Below are positions 1,432-46,432 of a stretch of 64,000 nt of DNA, one piece after another. Below the pieces are notes generated by a model, which saw only the letters and a program-made list of their open reading frames with translations, did not search any database and was not told where the DNA came from. A program made the position numbers and the translations under genes. Source of the stretch: Onthophagus taurus (lineage: Eukaryota > Arthropoda > Insecta > Coleoptera > Scarabaeidae); contig NW_027248940.1 of the NCBI RefSeq assembly GCF_036711975.1, forward strand, positions 124,001 to 188,000, written 5' to 3'. Numbering within the stretch: position 1 is the first letter of the stretch; each line of letters starts with the position of its first letter.

Positions 1432-3573
1432 CTAATCGTTGGTGGCAACGTTTTTTTCATCGTTGTTGCTGCATTTGCCGTATTCGTCTTCCCAATCGCT
1501 GTCCGAGTGTCTTTGTCTGAATCGATCTTTACGAGTCCATCGACCGGAATACTTTTCGGTAACAGTTATACCGTTGTTGAAAGACTTTTGCCGAATCTTT
1601 ACAATGTTACCGTCGAGCAATTCGATGGCGTCACTTTTGACTAGGTCGTCGTTGTCAAATTGAACGTACGAATACAACATGTGGTAGACTTCAATAACGT
1701 CGTAGAGATTTTGACATGCGGCAAAATAATATTCGAACGGTTCAAGATCAACATTAACATATGCGATATGTTCCAAATCGTAATAGACACCAGGATTTAT
1801 CGGTTCAACAGGCAATACGTTTACGGGTAACTTTTCCGCAACAATTTTCAATTTGTCCTCGGGTCGAGAATAGACCACGTTCTCGTCGACGTAGAGATCT
1901 TTGGTGCATACTTTTTCGTTGTTCGTATCGGACGGGCACTTGCACAAGCATAGTTCGTATTGGTAACGATTTAATTTCTTTGGATGCACGTCGACGTACA
2001 TTAACGACACCATCATTCGAAGCGTTTGTCTATCGACATCTTTCAACGTTTTAATCTTTTCGTCAACTTTGAAGTAATAGTACAAACCATCACAAGCATA
2101 GCTTAAATTGTCGCACGTTGTCAACTTATAGTCGACTGTGACCGGGACATTGTTGAGTGTTTTGAAAAATAGAATGCATTCTTCCAGCTTTGTTTCGTCT
2201 TCAATTGGTTTCCCGAGAATTGATTCGAAACGATGCCGGTTCACTTGATTGAATCGCCACGAGACGTTTTCCTTCAATTCCGGATGCTTGATACTTTGCA
2301 ACATCAAGTAACAGTTTAGATCGAAATCTTTTTGAATCTTGTCGTTGAATTGAATCTGTGGTTGTTTGTTGATGGGAAAGACAATTTCCGTTTTGATGAA
2401 TTCACGAAATCCTTCGCCTTCAACGCGATGCTTGACCCAATGCGGTAAAACGTACATCGTATTTTCCGTCAATGGAACGATAACCTCTTCGTTTTCGCCC
2501 AGATACATAAAATTAGCGTTTGGAAGTTCAACGTTCATGTAAATGAGCAGCGTGTATAGGGAACATGCCGATTTCTGATGATCGACAAACATTGTATCGT
2601 AATGAGCGTCAAATTTACCACCTCGATAGTATCGGTTCCATTTGAAGACATCGTTCAAGTAAAACGTTTGTTTATCGAATAGATCGGCAAGACGCGATTC
2701 TAGAGCCGTTTTCAATTTGGCATTAACAAACATCAGTACTTTACCATCGCGTTCGTTGTCGTTGTTTGGCGTTTTGAAAATGTATACTCGTTCGTCGCTG
2801 TTGGTCTTTACTTTGTAATGGCATTGATGGTAGAGAGGTTCATTGAAATCTGTTTTGCCACGATCATTATCGTACGTGTAACGGTGCTCTTCAAGTTCCC
2901 CAGATGCGTCTTCATCTGCATTGTCATCATCGCCAAACTTTAAATCTCCGGGCTCGTACGCGTTAAACGGATAATGTTTGAAACGGTTGGGGCCCCTAGA
3001 TCCGTAGAATAGAGTCGAATAGATGTCGTCGTTGCTTAGCTTTACGATAATTTCGGAACAATCATAACCGACGGGACTCGGTTCGCGACCAAACATAATC
3101 TCGTATCCGTAGTAGATTAACGGTAGGTGAACTTGGTTCCGAAAGAGATCGGGTCTGAATTTGTTACCTCTATCCCGTAGAGGCAACAAATTCGGGGCAG
3201 GTTGTGCGTCGTCGTTTTCGCTTCCCATGTCGAGAGTGAAACAATTGATCATGTCACAAAAGATATCACCGTCGCCTTCGTCGTCGGATTCAAAGCTGTC
3301 GTTCAACGCTTGCTGATTATCGCAGTAGACTGGGTAACGGTATTCGGATGTAGGATAGAGCGAAAGGTCTTGCGAATGCTTGGAATGATTTGGATACGTT
3401 GTATTCTTGAGACTGTATTGGGTAACGGGATCGTCGGGCGACACCAAATACACCAAACGCAACAACGTGTATACCTCGTCTTTTTCAATCGGTTTGGCTT
3501 CATCTGGGGAATCGTAGATTGATTTCAAAACAGAATACGCTTGATCGTAGGCTTGTTTCGAAAATGGATGCAT
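1432..3573 (-). CDS. Intronless 713-aa protein with 2-oxoglutarate/Fe(II) dioxygenase domain
   Basis: A single uninterrupted minus-strand ORF. The middle (about residues 290-400) carries a double-stranded beta-helix oxygenase signature. It has GGKFDAHYDT with the HxD iron ligands near residues 325-327, a hydrophobic strand CSLYTLLIYMN, and a distal histidine in LPHWVKHRVEGEGFREF near residue 381, followed by basic residues suited to holding 2-oxoglutarate. This resembles prolyl-4-hydroxylase-type domains. Residues 1-130 are acidic; residues 400-713 match nothing I recognise. The ORF is visibly richer in CG dinucleotides than the flanking AT-rich DNA and has no introns, unlike the host genes in this window. 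A viral or other horizontal origin is possible but is inference. The substrate is unknown. Candidate poly(A) signals (AATAAA on the minus strand) follow within about 100 nt. Confidence 0.8.
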   Translation of the reverse strand: MHPFSKQAYDQAYSVLKSIYDSPDEAKPIEKDEVYTLLRLVYLVSPDDPVTQYSLKNTTYPNHSKHSQDLSLYPTSEYRYPVYCDNQQALNDSFESDDEGDGDIFCDMINCFTLDMGSENDDAQPAPNLLPLRDRGNKFRPDLFRNQVHLPLIYYGYEIMFGREPSPVGYDCSEIIVKLSNDDIYSTLFYGSRGPNRFKHYPFNAYEPGDLKFGDDDNADEDASGELEEHRYTYDNDRGKTDFNEPLYHQCHYKVKTNSDERVYIFKTPNNDNERDGKVLMFVNAKLKTALESRLADLFDKQTFYLNDVFKWNRYYRGGKFDAHYDTMFVDHQKSACSLYTLLIYMNVELPNANFMYLGENEEVIVPLTENTMYVLPHWVKHRVEGEGFREFIKTEIVFPINKQPQIQFNDKIQKDFDLNCYLMLQSIKHPELKENVSWRFNQVNRHRFESILGKPIEDETKLEECILFFKTLNNVPVTVDYKLTTCDNLSYACDGLYYYFKVDEKIKTLKDVDRQTLRMMVSLMYVDVHPKKLNRYQYELCLCKCPSDTNNEKVCTKDLYVDENVVYSRPEDKLKIVAEKLPVNVLPVEPINPGVYYDLEHIAYVNVDLEPFEYYFAACQNLYDVIEVYHMLYSYVQFDNDDLVKSDAIELLDGNIVKIRQKSFNNGITVTEKYSGRWTRKDRFRQRHSDSDWEDEYGKCSNNDEKNVATND

Positions 3574-3977
3574 GTTTAGGCACTAGTAAAAAACTAAACT
3601 AAACTTGTTACGGTTTGACTTTTTGGGGTTATGTGTTTAATGTTATGTAATTAATGTTTTGTTTCTGTATCGGATAGATGTTTTGTTTTGTTTACAGGTA
3701 TTTTAGGTTGCATGAATACACGTTATTTTATTTTCTTTAAGTTTTATTTTATTTTATTAAAATTTCAGGGTAATTAACTTTTTTTTATAAAACGACAATT
3801 CTCCGATGATTTCCCTTCTTAATTTTCTTTTCCCCATTTCTTTCCCCTTCAGATATGGCGTTAGTCTTTGTTATTTTTTTGCTTGTGCGCAAGTATGTTT
3901 TTTTTTTAATTTTGAGAGGTTATTTATCGTCTTGTCTGGTTTTCCTCGATCTCTTTTGAATGTCAGTACAGTACGTG
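3574..3977. other. Intergenic, probable upstream region of the dioxygenase ORF
   Basis: T-rich, low-complexity sequence between the ORF start and the TA target of element A1. No gene is seen. A 67-codon plus-strand ORF at 3806 runs into the transposon end and is discounted. Confidence 0.5.
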
Positions 3978-34925: not shown

Positions 34926-37900
34926 CACCAAAGACTGACAAGAGAAGCCATAGAGATCCACCGACATAAAAATAACGTCAACAGAGAGGATGGCTGGGAG
35001 CTTAGCAGAACATGGAAGATGGTGGTGAACACGAAGACCTCTTCCCGCCTCACACCGGATGTGACGCAATTAGTTATTAATTAGCTTGTAATTAGCGTTA
35101 ACTGATTATTAATTAGTTTTTCCGACTTATATATAGTTACCGTTTTTTGATCTCGTCACTTCGAAGCAGTTTCTGAAGAAGGTTGCAACATGGCATCCGA
35201 AACGTCAAACCTTTTATTAAAAGACGCACGGCAAAACCCGAAAGTTTCTAGTTTTAGTTCTAATTGTAGTTTAATTATTTACGTTATTAATATCCATTTT
35301 AACTGGTTTTAGACTCACAAGCATCAATCAACGTAAATCAGACTTTGACGTTTGTCAATAAGTCATTAAACATTTGTTTTCCATGGCACACTAGGTTAAT
35401 ATTGATATGGTATGAGCATTTTTAAAAAAATCCTAATTATTTCTCAAACTATTAATGTTAGGCATAGGAAACATATGGAGTATAAAAGATGTAAAATGAG
35501 ACGCCGAAGACGACTAAGTAATAAAATATGAGGGGTGCCATTTAAAAAAATGAAGTTATGGTGCTTCCAAATTTTGAAAAGTTAACGTGTCATAGTAAAG
35601 TGACCAAACGATCTAGACAGCTGTTCTCGGCACCAAAACATACTCCATAATGTTGTTTAAGCATGTTCTGAATCCTAAATTGATATCTCAAAAAACTAGT
35701 GTTCTATGATTTTTTGAACAAATGTCCGCTGGAGCAGATTTTTCTAGAAAAATTCGAATAACTCGAGAACGGCTGAATCAAATTGCAAAAAGTAAAGTTA
35801 TTTATAAACCTTCAAAACAGACAAATCCAAATATGTAAAAATATACAGGATGTTCCATTTAACCTTTCGAGTGCACTGTGGGGTCAATATGACCCCACGA
35901 CTTATTATTTTGTGTGTATTTTCTAAACTATTAAATCTTTTATTTAATGAATTTTTATAATCTTCTAGACTATAATGCTCTATATGTATCTGTAATGAAT
36001 TTGAAATTTATGCGTTTCTAAAGGACAAAAAAAATTGATTGGGGTCATATTGACCCCACAGTGCACTTCTTGTACCTTTTTTTCTTAGGAAATTTCTTTA
36101 AATACTTTGAATTTGGCGCCGTCTTTAGCTTTTATTTACACAAAGGGGAAGTACCTATCTATACATTACTACTTGTGTGAATCCCCGGCCTTCCTACTTT
36201 GCTACATTCAACTGTATAGCTTCATCACAGAGCCACAGAGGTTCATCAGTTTGTTGTAAAACGCGAACCTGTACGGTAGTTCCTAACTTTGTCGTATCAA
36301 TACGGAAGTTGTTTCAAAAGTCAAAATGAGTCACAGAAGGCTATCCGACGATGAATGGTTAAAACTATTAGAAGATGAAAATTTTCCACCGACGGATTTT
36401 AATTGTCAAGAATTTAGTGAAGACGAAGATGAAAGTGACGAGGAAAACTCAACTTTGAGTGAACATGATTCTAACTCTGAAAATGATCTAAGTGACGGTG
36501 ACGACAACCTGGAAAACGAAGTAGAAAATTATCATTTATTTATGGGGAAAGACGGTAAAACTAAATGGAATAGTTTTCCAAAGCCAACATCACGCACAAG
36601 GGCAAAGAATATAGTTTTACACCTGCCTGGTCCAAAGAGAGCTGCTAAATCGGTAGTGAAGCCTCAAGATACATTTTCATTGTTTTTTGATGGTGACATG
36701 GTAGATAAGATAGTCAAGTATACTAATATAAAAATTGAAAGTGTTCTAGAAAATCGTGTAAATTTATGTAGCTATGACAGAAGAACAAACCGAGAAGAAA
36801 TATATGCAGTGTTCGGTTTACTCTTTATTTGCGGAGTTATGAGATCGTCTCATCTGCAACTCCATGATCTATGGAATACATCATACGGACCAGCCATTTG
36901 TCATGCAGCCATGAGTGAAAAGCGTTTCAAATTTTTGTTGGGCAACCTTCGATTTGATGATATTACAACCAGAAACATACGTAAGCAAGGTAATAAGTTG
37001 GCAGCAATAGTCGATCTATGGGAAGCATTTATTGTTAATTGTCAGAAACACTACATTATGAGTGAATACGTTACCATAGACGAAATATTATGTCCTTTTC
37101 GCGGACGTTGCTGTTTTGTGCAATATTTGCCGAATAAACCTGCCAAGTACGGTATAAAAATTTTTGGAATGAATTGTGCCCGAACATTCTACTTTTATTC
37201 TGGAAAAATTTATGCCGGCAAAGAAAATTAAAACGCGCAAAAAACCTTACTTAAATCTTACCGTTCCAATTCACAATACTGCAAGAAATATCACAACGGA
37301 TAACTGGTATACATCTATACCCTTAGGAAAAAGTTTGTTGCGAAAAAAATTAACACTGGTTGGTACTTTGAAAAAAAATAAGGTCGAAATTCCCAAAGAG
37401 TTCCAAGCAAACAAACAACGAGCTGTTTATTCTACGTTAGAAGGTTTTTCAGAACTGGGGAAAATGGTGTAGTATGTTCCCAAGAAAGGCAAGTGTGTGA
37501 TCATTTTTAGTACAATGCATGATGATAGAAGCAAACTGGAAGCTGAAAATAAAAACAAGCCTGAAGAAATCGAATTCTATAATAAATCAAAGGGAGGCAT
37601 AGATACATTAGATAAATTGTGTGCCACGTACACGACTCAAAGAGGGTCACGACGCTGGCCTATGGTAATTTTCTATTTTATGTTGAATGCTTGCACAATA
37701 AATGGTCAACTAATCTTCAGAGATGTTAAACCTGATTATTTCAGAGATACTTCACATTCTAGACGATTATTTATACGTGAAATAGGTGAAATAGGTGAAG
37801 GTTTGGTGAGAGCGCAACTTCAGATAAGGTCCGGTATACCAAATTTGCAACCTTTGGTAAAGTTAAGTCTTGCGCGCTGTGGATTTGAAGTTCTCCCTAG

Positions 37901-40271: not shown

Positions 40272-40700
40272 TAAGTGTAAAACTGCAATATGTAAAAATC
40301 ATTCTTATATTACATGTTCTAATTGTCATAAATAAAATATTTTTTATCTATAATGTAAAATAGACCTTAAACATTGTTCTTATAATTTGGTTTTCTCAAA
40401 TAAAGTTTGTTCCTAAATAATAACAACATTCTTTACATGGGGTCATATAGACCCCGTTGTGCACTCCGTGTGACTCAAAAAGACTGTGCACTCGGAAAAA
40501 TAAAGTAGGTGGCGACTTCCGGTACAACCGGAAGTGCTAGAAATCTGAAAATATTTTAGATGAAGAGAACGTAATTGATAATACTTAAGTCTGAATTCTC
40601 AAATTTTTATTTTCGCCAGAATCTCAGAAACGTCTAATGACCGGTCTCGCTGAGACACTCTGTATATAATACATCTATATAATATAAAGTTAAAAATCAC

Positions 40701-40828
40701 CTAAATAAATTAGCATATTATCTGGACGAAGAGCTTGTGCTGATCGTATGCTCGTCACGCAATGAGCTGCGGTAATCACATGATACCTAGACACTAGGGA
40801 TCCCCCACAAACATATCGTCGGCCTAAT
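40701..40828 (-). CDS. Trypsin-like serine protease, exon with catalytic His
   Basis: The exon runs from an acceptor ...ttttgcag inside the K terminal repeat (40829 is the last intron base) to a GT donor at 40700-40699. It encodes LGRRYVCGGSLVSRYHVITA and continues AHCVT...LIYLG. CGGSLVS...TAAHC is the S1A catalytic-His block. It ends in phase 1, as expected after '.LG'. The residues before YVCGG come from the transposon end. No exon with the catalytic Asp or Ser (GDSGG) follows in the window; the region to the left is solid transposon, so the gene is probably broken. Confidence 0.75.
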
Positions 40829-43800
40829 CTGCAAAACCCGTAAGTCACAAATAAACAATTTTGGAGGAGGAGTAAAAAACGTTTCAACAATTAATTGTCA
40901 AATATTTAATTGTTCTATTGCTATAGAATATCAAATATGCGTTCTATCTTATATATTTATGGGTTATTATGGATTAAACAATATTTATTGAAATTAAAAA
41001 GGACTTACGGGATTTACTCATAAAAAATTCAAATATAATTGGACATACTGGATTTCCATGTTTAAAGAATAAATACAGGATTATTAAGAATACACTAAAC
41101 ATTTTAAGGTATTTATTTACCAAATTATTGCAAAATTACAATTTTTTAGAATAAACAGATACAGCTACAAACAAAATATATTTATTTTTCGAAGAAACAG
41201 ATAAAACAGAATAGTTATGTTTTGAAATATATATGGAAATTATTATAAGACAATGCAATGGTCTTATTTAATAAATGGAAGGTTATTATAAAAGTAATGA
41301 TAGTCTCTTTGTAAACTTGACTTTAGAAATTGTAATTGCATCCACTTTTCATATTTAATTGGAATTGGACCCTTGTATAATACTGGAAGATCATCCACTG
41401 GACATTTAGCTTCTTTTCTCTGACCTTTACTTACTCGGCTATAATGAAGTTCAACAAAATCTTCTGTATGTCTCAATTTATAAAATAAAGAACTATCGGG
41501 TGCATATCGCAATGCTCGTATCAGCCCGCTTTCCTGGACGTATAGATTTCAAATAATTTAACATGTGAAAATCCTTGAAAAAAGTATAATCCAAATAAAA
41601 AACTTTATAAGGTTGTTTTTCTCGAGCTTTCAAACTAATGTTAACATAATCGGCAGGTACATTGATGTCTGTGTGCCGCATCCGTCTCTCAATCGTTGAA
41701 TGCATCGAATCGGCCTCCATCTGGGTATGGCCTTTTTCGAGGTATTTTTGTTCAATAGTTATATCCAGAGTCATCGATAAGTTTATTAATGCGTTGGCCA
41801 AAGTGGAATTACGATTTTGGGATGTACAGCCATCACTGTACAATATTACTTTTTGTTTTGGTTCCATATTCATAAAAACATTATCTATTATAAATTTGCA
41901 GATTATAGTAGAATAGTCATTTGCCGAAACACTCCCATTTCATTCATGCCATAAGTAGCAATATCCATTTTTAGCTTTTAGGTCAAAAAATGTGAAGTTA
42001 TGTACCATTAACTTCTGTTTGAAGTAAAGTGATGAAGTATTTGACTTCGGCGATAACAGAATTGATTGCAGGTCCATGCAAAAAATATGACTTTCTGCTT
42101 CTTTATCTTTTATTTTTTCTTCCCTTGCTTCTTTTTTCATTGTCTGGTGTAAGTTGAAAATTTCATCTGATAGATTTCCGGTTCTATGACTTACACATTT
42201 GTCGCATTGGTCTTTCTTTGGACGAAAGAGCGACAAGTTCATTTTCTCAAAAACATGATCAAATGATGTACTGGATGCGAACTTGTATTTATTATCTGCG
42301 CACCATTGTTTGTAAAATGTATAAATTGACGATTTTGACTTCCATAATGGCTCTAAGTAAAATTTTGATGATGACGATCGGCAGTAATGAGACACATTTA
42401 AAAAACGCTGTATATTTTCTTTCACTTTCTGATATCGAGTAGCTTTGTCTTTAATACATTTTTTTCTTGTTGTTTTTCAGTATTCTCTCCCACATCTTTA
42501 TTTATATTCTTTTCCCGAGCAATTTCCTTCAACCAGTCCAAAACCATGTTCTCTTTTACGCAATGTGTGCGTAAAAACATTTGCTTGCATACTCTTAAAT
42601 GATCACCTGCTTTTTTTAAGTAGTATTCTAAAGTCTCGCTTCTCCTTGACACATTATCCTCTTTTCTATTTCTTTGTCTATTAATAGGCTTAGATACAAT
42701 TAATAATGACACATACACATTTCTGACCAAAAATTATCAAAAATATTTTCCCTCTCCGTTTCTGAAAAATCGCGACATTTTAGCACCGAATTCTCATGCA
42801 AGGAAGGTTTGCAGTTGCACCACTCTTGCATTTTTCTCTCCTCTTTTGGCAAATCGTATCTCCATTTTCCGTCGACCATTTTTCTTCCTAAATATTCTTT
42901 TCCTTGTTCGCGAAACGACTTTCTTTTACTTTCATTCCATGTTTTGCTGTCTACAAACTGTCTCTTGTTTCTTTTCCTTTTCATCTCTGGTAAGTCAGAT
43001 TGTTGAGCTGTGTTATCATCCTGGGGATGGATGGTAGTTTCAGGTACATAATTTGGATCCCCTTCATCAGCATCCATTTCTTCATCTTCCTCATCTTTAC
43101 TATTTAATTCAGGCACATAATCCGGATCATCTATTTGCACTTCTATCTCTTCTTCAATATTTTTATATGGTAAATGTTCTAAAAGCACATTATTTTCTAG
43201 TCCAGTCTTTTTATTTTTTTCAATATCACATTCTGTACTCGCTAAAGCTTTGCAAACTTTATTTATTTCTAAGGTTGTCTCGTCAGTCTTTCCATCACTT
43301 ATTCCTATATTATCATATTGTTGTGTAAAACTAAAACTAGATTCGATGGCATCAGTAATTTCTGGAATGTCTAATAATAACAAGCTTTTATCGTCTTGTA
43401 TTGGTGTCGGATTGCACAAACTAATATCGTTCGTAATATTGTCTATTTGTTGATTATAAGGTAACATGATACTAGTTTCAATACTCTGTTCATTATCACA
43501 GAAAGGTGTTACAGGGTTACAATAATTGTACATTATAAGACATGAATGATTGTTTCTAGCAACTGATTCAGGATCAGATTCATTTAAAATTTCATTCAAA
43601 TGTGTGTGACTTGATTATTCGGCAGCCTAAAATTTGCCGAAATCTGCCTATAATTTTTTTTTTATCTTTGACATACTCAATTATGTTTGCTGAAATGAAA
43701 TTAAAAACTAATTATAAATTATTTTATTATACGAAACCTCTCGAAAATCCCACAAGTCCAACTGTGTTAATATATAACATAATATAGAATAACTTACCTT

Positions 43801-44101
43801 TAGCAAAAATTGCAAATAAAGTCACACTGATACCGGATGTTTACATATAATTTGTTTTTCAACAGAACCATCTCTTCACTGCATGCTGGATTACTCTGCA
43901 ATGAGGACTTACGGCTATTACGTGTCCGGTTCAACGAGCATGGACTTGCGGGGTTTACTAAATTTTAAATTAACGAAAAAGTAATTTTTACAAGAATATG
44001 TAATTTTTTCAGTCAATAGATTATTGTTTCCTCAACAGATGCTACTAAAATGTCAATTTAGACCAAAAGTATACTTACGGGTTTTGCAGATTAGGCCGAC
44101 G
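40817..44101. mobile_element. Element K: 3.3-kb DDE transposon with 29-bp perfect TIR and ATAT duplication
   Basis: The TIR starts CGTCGGCCTAATCTG and ends CCCGTAAGT (40817-40845 on plus, inverted at 44073-44101). It is flanked by atat on both sides (40813-40816, 44102-44105). It encodes a DDE-type transposase on the minus strand. A 4-bp duplication is compatible with Sola- or Chapaev-like elements; the class is open. Both TIRs contain strong splice-site words (see findings). Confidence 0.9.
41264..43599 (-). pseudogene. DDE-type transposase of element K, lightly damaged
   Basis: Pieces: 43599-42700, 42730-42422, 42425-41940, 41873-41493, 41512-41264. The acidic N-terminus is followed by DSKTWNESKRKSFREQGKEY and a Cys block (WCNCKPSLHENSVLKC). 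The core has CMDLQSILLSP (Asp 1), QKLMVHNFTFFDLKAKNGYC, VILYSDGCTSQNRNSTLANA (Asp 2) and KGHTQMEADSMHSTIERR (Glu), a plausible D-D-E triad. A Cys motif (PKKDQCDKC) precedes it. An in-frame TGA between CYLWHE and NGSVSANDYS and one or two frameshifts inactivate it; some breaks near 42720 could be introns. I know this layout from other arthropod genomes but cannot name the superfamily with certainty. Confidence 0.75.
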
Positions 44102-44203
44102 ATATTGAAGACCAACCCCTCTCGAATGATACAAAGCGGCGTGCCACGGAAATTGCCCAATACTGGTTTTTTGGCCATACACTATCAAAGGTTGGGCCGC
44201 CAC
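44079..44203 (-). CDS. Trypsin-like serine protease, exon split by transposon K
   Basis: An acceptor at 44206-44204 opens VAAQPLIVYGQKTSIGQFPW, then HAALYHSRGVGLQY, the start of an S1A protease domain. At 44101 the codons pass into the K terminal repeat (RRPNLQNP) up to a GTAAGT donor at 44078. Without K the exon would continue directly into YVCGGSLV at 40812. The combined length of this exon and 40701-40828 keeps the reading frame. Confidence 0.75.
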
Positions 44204-44281
44204 CTGAAACCCAAAATAAACGAAAAAAAAAATTAAATGCAAATTTAAACGTTAAAAAATTGTTTTCAATTAAATTTTTAC

Positions 44282-44428
44282 CTGTGATTGGGCGGGTCTT
44301 TGATTTTGTATCGCCAAACTATTAACGATGTAGTTAATGTAGTCGTACAGGTTCATTTGGGCCGAGGATCCGTCCCCAGCTATTGATGAGTCTCCATCAA
44401 AATAATATACTTGCCTTTTAAACCGATT
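44282..44428 (-). CDS. Trypsin-like serine protease, upstream exon
   Basis: A 147-nt, 49-codon phase-0 exon: acceptor ending at 44429, donor GTAAAA from 44281. It encodes NRFKRQVYYFDGDSSIAGDG and LYDYINYIVNSLAIQNQR, a linker ahead of the protease domain that I cannot assign to a named module. Earlier exons are not recognised; the ALG11 3' end lies 150 bp to the right, so any would have to be further away or lost. Confidence 0.55.
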
Positions 44429-44513
44429 CTAATACACACACACATTCACAAAGGAGAATTTGGATGTATGAATAGAAATTTTTTACTTTTGGTAAAAATG
44501 TTTTTCAAAATTC

Positions 44514-44577: not shown

Positions 44578-46103
44578 CTAATTCGTCTCGAACAAATAAT
44601 CAACAGCTTTCAAAAATTCATCTTGAAATTTTTTATTCGAGAATCGATCGACGGAAGCTCGCGCCCGCTCGATTAAGTCCAAAACAGATCTTTCAGCCAT
44701 CGTTAAAACATGTTTTATCGTTTGAGCGTATTCCTTAGCTGAAATTGCTAAATAACCTAACCTACAAATCAAAAAAATTATTTTTTTAATTACTTTGAAT
44801 TAAATTAATTTTACCTAGATGATTCGGTCGTTTCAATAATATCAAGTAAAGGTCCCCCGGATTTATGCGCAATCGTAATTAACCCAGCTGCTAATAATTC
44901 AACAACTCCAATTCCAAAATGTTCATCAATCATCGTGTGTATTCCTAACGAAGCACTTTCGAATTCTTTTAATAATTCCTCATAGGTGATATTAACGCGA
45001 AATTCAACTCTATTCTCTAAGCTTAAATGTTTACTAAAATCCTTTAAATCTTTTACGCGGATTGTGTCGTCTTCGTTGCGACAACTTCCGCATAAAACTA
45101 AAGTAATCCTTTCAAAATCCACCTCAGAAATTATCTCCCGCAATTCATACATAGCTTGAATTTGTAACTGATGGTCCTTTTCCGGTCGGAATTGCGCCAA
45201 AGATAAAATTCGAATATTTTCCGGGAAAGATCCACTCCTTTTTAACGTTTTTAAATGATTCACTTCACACGGGGGGTAAACCAACCGTAAAGGACGACTC
45301 CAAAGCGAAGTTAAATGCTCCAAAGTAAACGTTGAATTCACCATCGACACATCAGAACAATCTCCAGCTAATGAATAAAGCCAGGCGAATAATCGATAAT
45401 AAATCAGTTTTCCAGTTGTTAAAAAAGGACTTCGAGCGATCGTGCTTCGATTGTTGTACATTACTTGGCGAGTTGAGACGCGTTTTAGCATCTCAACTGT
45501 TATCGTGGGGTAATGAACGTAACAAGCAGTTTTGCAACCCCCGATGTATTTGAAAATGGGGAGGGTAAAAGCGAAACCGGTTGTGTCAATAAAAATATCT
45601 GGACTCAATGATTTTAAAGCTTCGTAACCCAAATAAATCGAACCGAGACTTTGGCCCAATAACGTAAAGTAGGGGTACATTTGGGCCTCCACGAACCTTC
45701 GTTTGCTCAAATAAACGAATTTAACGCCTTCCTCTAAATGTACGTTAAGATTATTACGTATTTTCAGCTTAATTTCTTCTGGGGTAACCCCCACATCGCC
45801 GGTATAAACGAAAATTTCGATTTCCGGGTGCCTAAAAAATTTTTTTAATACTTTTTTTATTAAATTAAAATGATTATACCGTTTTTGTAAAGCTTGTATT
45901 GCAACCCAAAGCACTTTTTCACCTCCCCCGCCGGCGTTGCAATAAGGATGAAAGAAAGCGACTCGAAGTTTACTCCGATCCTTCTTCCTCGAAAGACATC
46001 TCCAGCGTAGGAAGTAAAATAAAATAGGTAAAAGTAAGGCGGAGAGGATAATAAGATAAACGGTAAAGACGAATATTATTTTGCTCAAAGAAATTAGTGA
46101 CAT
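44578..46103 (-). CDS. ALG11: ALG11 alpha-1,2-mannosyltransferase
   Basis: Two exons (46103-44815 and 44761-44578) joined across a short GT-AG intron give 490 codons, against about 492 in human ALG11. The N-terminal hydrophobic anchor (residues about 8-32) precedes HPYCNAGGGGEKVLW, the glycine-rich acceptor loop. Further landmarks are FIDTTGFAFTLPIFKYIGG, CYVHYPTIT, LAQFRPEKDHQLQIQAM and EHFGIGVVELLAAG (GT-B donor-site E-x7-E region). In the family this enzyme adds the fourth and fifth mannoses to the dolichol-linked oligosaccharide on the cytosolic ER face. It appears intact. It is divergently placed to RAD54, with transposon J between them. Confidence 0.95.
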
Positions 46104-46432
46104 CCTAAAAAGAATCGTTTTAAATTATATTGATGTGGATTTTGAGGTTATAACATAACCTTAACTGTCAAATTGAAAAGATAATTTAAACTTACACGTA
46201 ATTAAAGTGAATTTTTTTAGTGTTAATTAATTAATTTAACTTAATTAAATCGATTTATATTAAATGAGATTTATTTATTTTTTTTAATAATTTATTAATC
46301 TTTAATTTATTAAAAAGTGTAATTTTTTCATGTTGGTACTACTTATAACTAATTACGTCCCGTTTATCAAATTAAATGATTATTTAATTAAAATAACGAA
46401 GCTAATTTAATTAAATTAATAATCTTTAATAA
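46104..46432. promoter_or_regulatory. Residual ALG11 upstream region
   Basis: The 329 bp between the ALG11 ATG and transposon J are AT-rich with no recognisable motif. With 49786-49975 this was presumably the shared ALG11-RAD54 divergent promoter (inference). Confidence 0.4.

Follow-up and report, generated by a model that had tools for sequence, protein, structure and literature searches.

We suggest that element K, a DNA transposon with terminal inverted repeats (TIRs) in the dung beetle Onthophagus taurus, is a chance insertion in a non-functional protease duplicate, and that the splice-like signals in its TIRs are unselected for splicing, a reading to which we give a probability of about 0.75. 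The window, the whole stretch of DNA that was analysed, is 64 kb long (G000:C15:124001-188000) and belongs to a 290.8-Mb genome. A functional reading of the splice-like signals is not supported; we infer that the pair is neutral and without function, and K is an anatomical curiosity whose striking part is probably fortuitous.

K is 3,285 bp long, carries perfect 29-bp TIRs between ATAT target site duplications (TSDs), and divides a trypsin exon. The slash marks the border between exon and intron sides:
40817..44101, minus strand: element K, TIR DNA transposon; transposase on the minus strand, its frame broken in this copy
40813..40816: TSD ATAT, flank of K
44102..44105: TSD ATAT, flank of K
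40817..40845, plus strand: 29-bp TIR; acceptor TTTTGCAG/A on the minus strand, at 40829
44073..44101, minus strand: 29-bp TIR; donor CCC/GTAAGT on the minus strand, at 44078
40829..44078, minus strand: hypothetical GT-AG intron, 3,250 nt, as a reading of the sequence only

We detected a paralogue without K at G000:C15:232350-232563, on the opposite strand and within locus L031. Comparison with this empty site shows that a single exon is interrupted by K and identifies the 4 bp as a target duplication. Elsewhere in the genome, the four best matches to K have 92-94% identity across about 2.8-3.0 kb; a search of a phage collection with K gave no match and was uninformative.

Read on the minus strand from 44078 to 40829, the 3,250 nt start with GTAAGT and end with TTTTGCAG. 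Joining the two sides across K gives ...GLQY-RRPNLQNPLGRR-YVCGGS..., with 13 stop-free codons added. With identical TIRs, the splice sites come out the same whichever way round the element inserts. The anatomy described in an earlier note on this DNA therefore stands: the trypsin-like exon interrupted by K agrees with the empty site, the perfect 29-bp TIRs agree with inverted arms that are 100% complementary, the donor at 44078 and the acceptor at 40829 of a 3,250-nt GT-AG stretch are present on the minus strand, the 39-nt scar is 13 stop-free codons in frame in the joined translation, and the symmetry of orientation follows from the identical TIRs. The comparison with a relative lacking K, which that note had proposed, is provided by the empty site in the paralogue.

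In terms of the splice-site consensus, GTAAGT is a full match to the intron side of a donor and TTTTGCAG is a fair acceptor, while the usual exon side of a donor is AG and K has CCC. These signals could be read as introner-like, the TIR having evolved for spliceosomal removal from genes in either orientation, with 39 nt left in frame and the harm to the host softened. Both sites lie in a perfect TIR with orientation symmetry, and the scar length is divisible by 3 in the sole open phase, which speak for this reading. The same scar also speaks against it, being open in just one of the three phases, the one present at the K site, so that an open scar is expected for one insertion in three. The unusual CCC and the length of the supposed intron are further points against it; inside lie 11 AATAAA poly(A) signals on the strand of the K transposase, a second strong donor (AAG/GTAAGT at 43797) and four other GTRAGT sites. 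Together with the evidence from the host exon and from related elements given below, this makes the introner-like reading unlikely. K may possibly be spliced, and if the locus is transcribed we judge the chance that the pair would be used at about one in three; any such splicing would probably be fortuitous. Pairing of the two arms, which covers both sites, also speaks against use of the pair. A search of the genome for the joint that splicing at the TIRs would leave (for instance, in a retrocopy) gave 0 matches with up to 3 mismatches.

The host exon belongs to a truncated copy of a protease gene, located next to ALG11:
44282..44428, minus strand: protease fragment, exon c, 147 nt; missing from the public isoform X2 protein
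44102..44203, minus strand: protease fragment, 5' part of exon d, from comparison with the parent
40701..40812, minus strand: protease fragment, 3' part of exon d, with the TAAHC motif
40675..44488, minus strand: whole protease fragment around K; parent exons a, b and e without convincing match in the window
44811..46124, minus strand: main open exon of the neighbour ALG11, whose last exon ends near 44579

The parent, a gd-type serine protease gene 64 kb from K, holds the empty site and encodes a protein with GD_N and trypsin parts. Its exons a, b, d and e correspond to the public Onthophagus taurus isoform X2 (P0125) without substitution (284 identities, 50 gap columns); isoform X2 skips exon c. 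The public protein extends to the GDSGGG motif; a search of L031 and the 7 kb after it did not bring up the serine-exon motifs that this protein contains. As a side observation, parent exon c (L031:4115-4261, 147 nt, in frame) looks like a cassette exon, given its absence from public isoform X2. A 2.3-kb insertion, starting with CAGGGTGTTCCGG and inverted at its far end, occupies the parent intron beside exon d (L031:4587-6912); the window fragment is without it, and another sequence cuts the fragment at about 40670.

Alignment of the window with L031 covered 142 nt at 98.6% and 398 nt at 96.0%, with outer ends at 40675 and 44488. The tblastn search of parent exons a-e against the 64-kb window found only c and d, with no convincing match for a, b and e. 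The window copy is a truncated two-exon duplicate within the 64-kb window, and a functional protease in it was ruled out on the same search; even perfect removal of K could not restore the protease, since parent exons a, b and e are unmatched in the window. Leaving aside the ragged end beside the next insertion, the alignment of fragment and parent shows 2 synonymous changes in the exons and, in the introns, 4 substitutions and an 11-nt gap. Non-synonymous changes number 0, which counts against the chance-insertion reading, and splice sites and frame are intact in both exons, c and d. The few differences make K younger than a recent duplication. The "protease exon" of the earlier note is thus right as to insertion in an exon, and wrong as to the exon being that of a gene.

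A host exon within a fragment counts against the introner-like reading. The fragment might be rescued by splicing into a functional transcript, for example by read-through from ALG11, with K as a real new intron. The immediate upstream neighbour on this strand is ALG11, and the retained splice sites and frame of exons c and d would fit. Against this, the ALG11 frame is closed by a stop of its own, AATAAA signals follow at 44533-44514, immediately before the start of the fragment, and parent exons a, b and e are unmatched in the window. We consider such a transcript very improbable.

The sites of the other copies of the K family are consistent with the chance-insertion reading. Twenty-two K TIRs were found with up to 3 mismatches, all of them (22/22) keeping AG and 20/22 keeping GTAAGT, a retention that counts against that reading, though it may be due to recent descent. 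They belong to 14 copies, 8 of them two-ended and 6 one-ended. The TSD is ATAT in 7/8 two-ended copies and AAAT in 1/8; beside the known end of the one-ended copies there is ATAT in 4/6 and GTAT in 2/6. The two one-ended TIRs next to GTAT (loci L025 and L029) have similar flanks, and both may sit in copies of one repeat.

As far as translated frames can tell, recognisable coding sequence was present at the site of 1/14 copies, K itself. By eye, no protein could be recognised in the joined-flank frames of the 7 other two-ended copies or in the frames beside the 6 one-ended ones. Copies D, E, J and M have open stretches of 50 to 100 aa across the joined flanks, and two J frames searched against Pfam matched no family. 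According to Pfam, copy B has retroelement integrase and RVT_2 pieces on its two sides, copy D follows a class-III aminotransferase gene (its last exon recognised by eye) on the 3' side of that gene, at a distance of a few hundred nt, and copy M lies between exons of a Dicer-like gene. Copy M is a 113-bp deletion derivative with both TIRs (L050:4874-4988; G000:C1:43270874-43270986) and a 78-nt GT-AG stretch in either orientation. On its sequence, it is the most introner-like form; none of the 7 other two-ended copies is as short. The Dicer-like intron (L050:2997-4881) also contains tandem repeats, with alternating 50-aa open stretches recurring every 399 nt.

If coding sequence makes up about a tenth of the genome, as we assume, a single coding-type site in 14 copies is close to chance level, and there is no burst of genic copies such as the introner-like reading would call for. 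Other exonic copies were considered as support for splicing and rejected, no protein being recognisable at the 13 other sites. The genome search for exonic TIR copies that the earlier note had suggested therefore went against it: among 22 TIRs and 14 copies, the sole coding-type site is that of K, in a fragment. Its central claim, that the TIRs make K a self-splicing-out intron, is unsupported, as the host is a two-exon fragment, the 13 other copies include no coding-type site, and the sister subfamilies do not have the K pair at the ends that were read. Nor is "self-splicing" the right word for K, which at most would be removed by the spliceosome.

Two sister subfamilies, S1 (loci L051, L052, L055 and L056) and S2 (L053 and L054), have nearly the same outer TIR end as K and different inner halves. 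The S1 transposase (L052) has 45% identity over residues 1-537. The S1 TIR is CGTCGGCCTAATGTGAAAATTGCACAAGTCC, in which CACAAGT or CATAAGT replaces CCGTAAGT at 8/8 ends and TTTTCAC stands where K has TTTTGCAG, with the K donor and acceptor missing at 8/8 ends. S1 retains the weaker GTGAAA and ATTAG, and on this sequence may have another splice pair. One end was read per S2 locus: L053 has GTAAGT in a TIR without AG, and L054 has GTAACT with AG about 6 nt closer to the tip, so that GTAAGT is present at one of the two ends and TTTTGCAG at neither. With two ends, one per locus, S2 is weak evidence against a kept splice pair. ATAT lies beside 8/8 S1 ends and 2/2 S2 ends. The K pair is therefore not seen in the sister subfamilies where read, a further point against the introner-like reading.

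The donor motif, in the inner half of the K TIR, recurs in four varied repeats near the K ends (family D1):
41000..41057, plus strand: two subterminal repeats of the inner TIR motif, 41000-41017 being AGGACTTACGGGATTTAC and 41040-41057 78% like 41000-41017
43904..43958, plus strand: two more subterminal repeats of the same motif, 43904-43921 and 43941-43958

S1 likewise repeats its own inner-TIR variant near its ends (I4, I7). As these subterminal repeats resemble each family's own inner TIR half, the inner motif ACTTACGGG is most likely a putative transposase-binding motif.

The most plausible course of events would then be as follows. K would be an ordinary cut-and-paste TIR DNA transposon making a 4-bp duplication, mostly ATAT, and its insertion would by chance have hit a two-exon duplicate of a gd-type serine protease gene, recent and non-functional, directly 3' of ALG11. 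The splice-like signals would sit in the variable inner half of the TIR, likely as part of the binding motif ACTTACGGG, with the outer end kept. If the locus is transcribed, the pair could be usable as a cryptic intron, and the product would still be without the rest of the protease.

The rarity of the pair in other 29-mers speaks for the introner-like reading. We counted 29-mers containing GTRAGT plus YYYYNCAG on the complement, a motif defined after being seen. In the window 34/127,942 29-mers fit, 26 of the 34 in the K TIRs. Outside the K TIRs, 8/127,612 fit in the window (two places) and 3/321,730 in 27 other loci (L031-L057, K-like TIRs omitted; one place), giving 11/449,342 in three places for both sets. 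A donor-acceptor pair in one 29-mer is rare, a figure that gauges surprise and is no test, because the motif was picked post hoc and a looser rule gives more. The rarity is tempered by the pair having been noticed in one among many repeats.

The transposase of K is encoded on the minus strand in open stretches:
42700..43614, minus strand: N-terminal open stretch, by eye like the open frames of locus L002
41493..42476, minus strand: catalytic part, in two open stretches (42476-41940 and 41939-41493), interrupted in K; DUF7869 match below the curated cut-off

The direct Pfam match of the K transposase to DUF7869 (PF25273) is below the curated cut-off; the search gave 380 homologues, and PF25273 occurs in part of the 120 listed. 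Among these 120, the best match is an unnamed protein with 62% identity, and named beetle and moth proteins have 42-52%. D543, D623 and E662 are among the invariant columns of 34 aligned relatives, and the catalytic part has an RNase H-like fold. By its TIRs and TSDs as well as by its transposase, K is a TIR DNA transposon with a DUF7869-like DDE transposase. The transposase family is common to K and the DUF7869 transposons of beetles, moths and others, whereas the donor-acceptor pair is a feature of the K-family TIR. A literature search on DUF7869 found no paper. K may resemble the Sola superfamily, which has a Sola transposase and a 4-bp TSD; of these, the 4-bp TSD is seen in K. Literature searches on Sola gave no paper or only general ones. 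The portions of PMC4455052 and PMC5199201 available to us give no TSD for Sola. Elsewhere in the window, a transposase open frame at 36287-37231 (plus strand) matches Pfam DDE_Tnp_1_7, presumably of piggyBac type, and a 716-aa open frame at 1432-3582 (minus strand) has, by eye, a 2-oxoglutarate-dioxygenase-like stretch and no Pfam family.

Inverted repeats are known to trigger SOS splicing. For K this would mean pairing of the two TIRs, then excision of the element and rejoining of the ends by RTCB, independently of GT-AG. The two K arms (40813-40845 and 44073-44105) are 33 nt long and 100% complementary, each made of the 29-nt TIR and the self-complementary ATAT duplication, and their perfect duplex has a computed energy of -60.3 kcal/mol, in agreement with such a mechanism. 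The pairing would at the same time cover both GT-AG sites, and the window has no sign that SOS splicing occurs in Onthophagus taurus, which leaves it a quite unlikely route for K. A review (PMC13247085), in its accessible part, describes how DNA transposons are cut out of mRNA, with ligation by RTCB. As described there, it is a possible exit route from animal mRNA and not spliceosomal; for K, just the TIR pairing was computed.

Transposon-borne cryptic splice sites can be used when maize Ds and dSpm or C. elegans Tc1 lie in an exon. Splicing was measured in those systems, whereas K is known as a sequence possibility only. Our literature search on spliced transposon insertions gave nothing direct, and one on introners together with insects gave two papers only, negatives that reach no further than these searches.

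A further comparison is with introners. In the sections of PMC9860276 that we draw on, introners are bounded by TIRs and TSDs, with splice sites inside and codons added, as in Aureococcus, where they carry both splice sites and add 12 bp; introners of this kind favour the introner-like reading of K. The same sections give families whose median length ranges from 30 to 654 nt and whose copies number from 5 to over 2,000, and report introners in two groups only among animals and land plants (PMC9860276). As K reads, it has the TIR and TSD bounds, the donor and acceptor inside and the added codons in common with them. It differs in being 3.3 kb long with a transposase gene, and in that 1/14 found copies lies in a coding-type exon, a fragment (comparison with PMC9860276, in the same sections).

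Both splice sites are thus carried by K, as far as its sequence goes, while many copies forming introns in genes are not seen (22 TIRs, 14 copies, one coding-type fragment site) and the host is a two-exon fragment in the 64-kb window, not a functional gene. K falls short of an introner on genic copy number and on functional host. The introner-type mechanism, with both sites and added codons, is already in print in the portion of PMC9860276 cited, and would not be new in K. Only under a reading that we regard as improbable would K belong to an insect transposon family with the TIR as a symmetric donor-acceptor cassette, the spliceosome removing exonic insertions of either orientation with a fixed 39-nt in-frame scar, and with the 113-bp derivative (78-nt intron) as a nascent introner in a terrestrial animal. 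If splicing at the TIRs were true, K would be a rare animal transposon turned intron by its ends, with the empty-site paralogue as control. Taken together, the K case suggests that a TIR motif can mimic an intron, and that, before an element of this kind is called an introner, one should look at its sister families and at the condition of the host exon.
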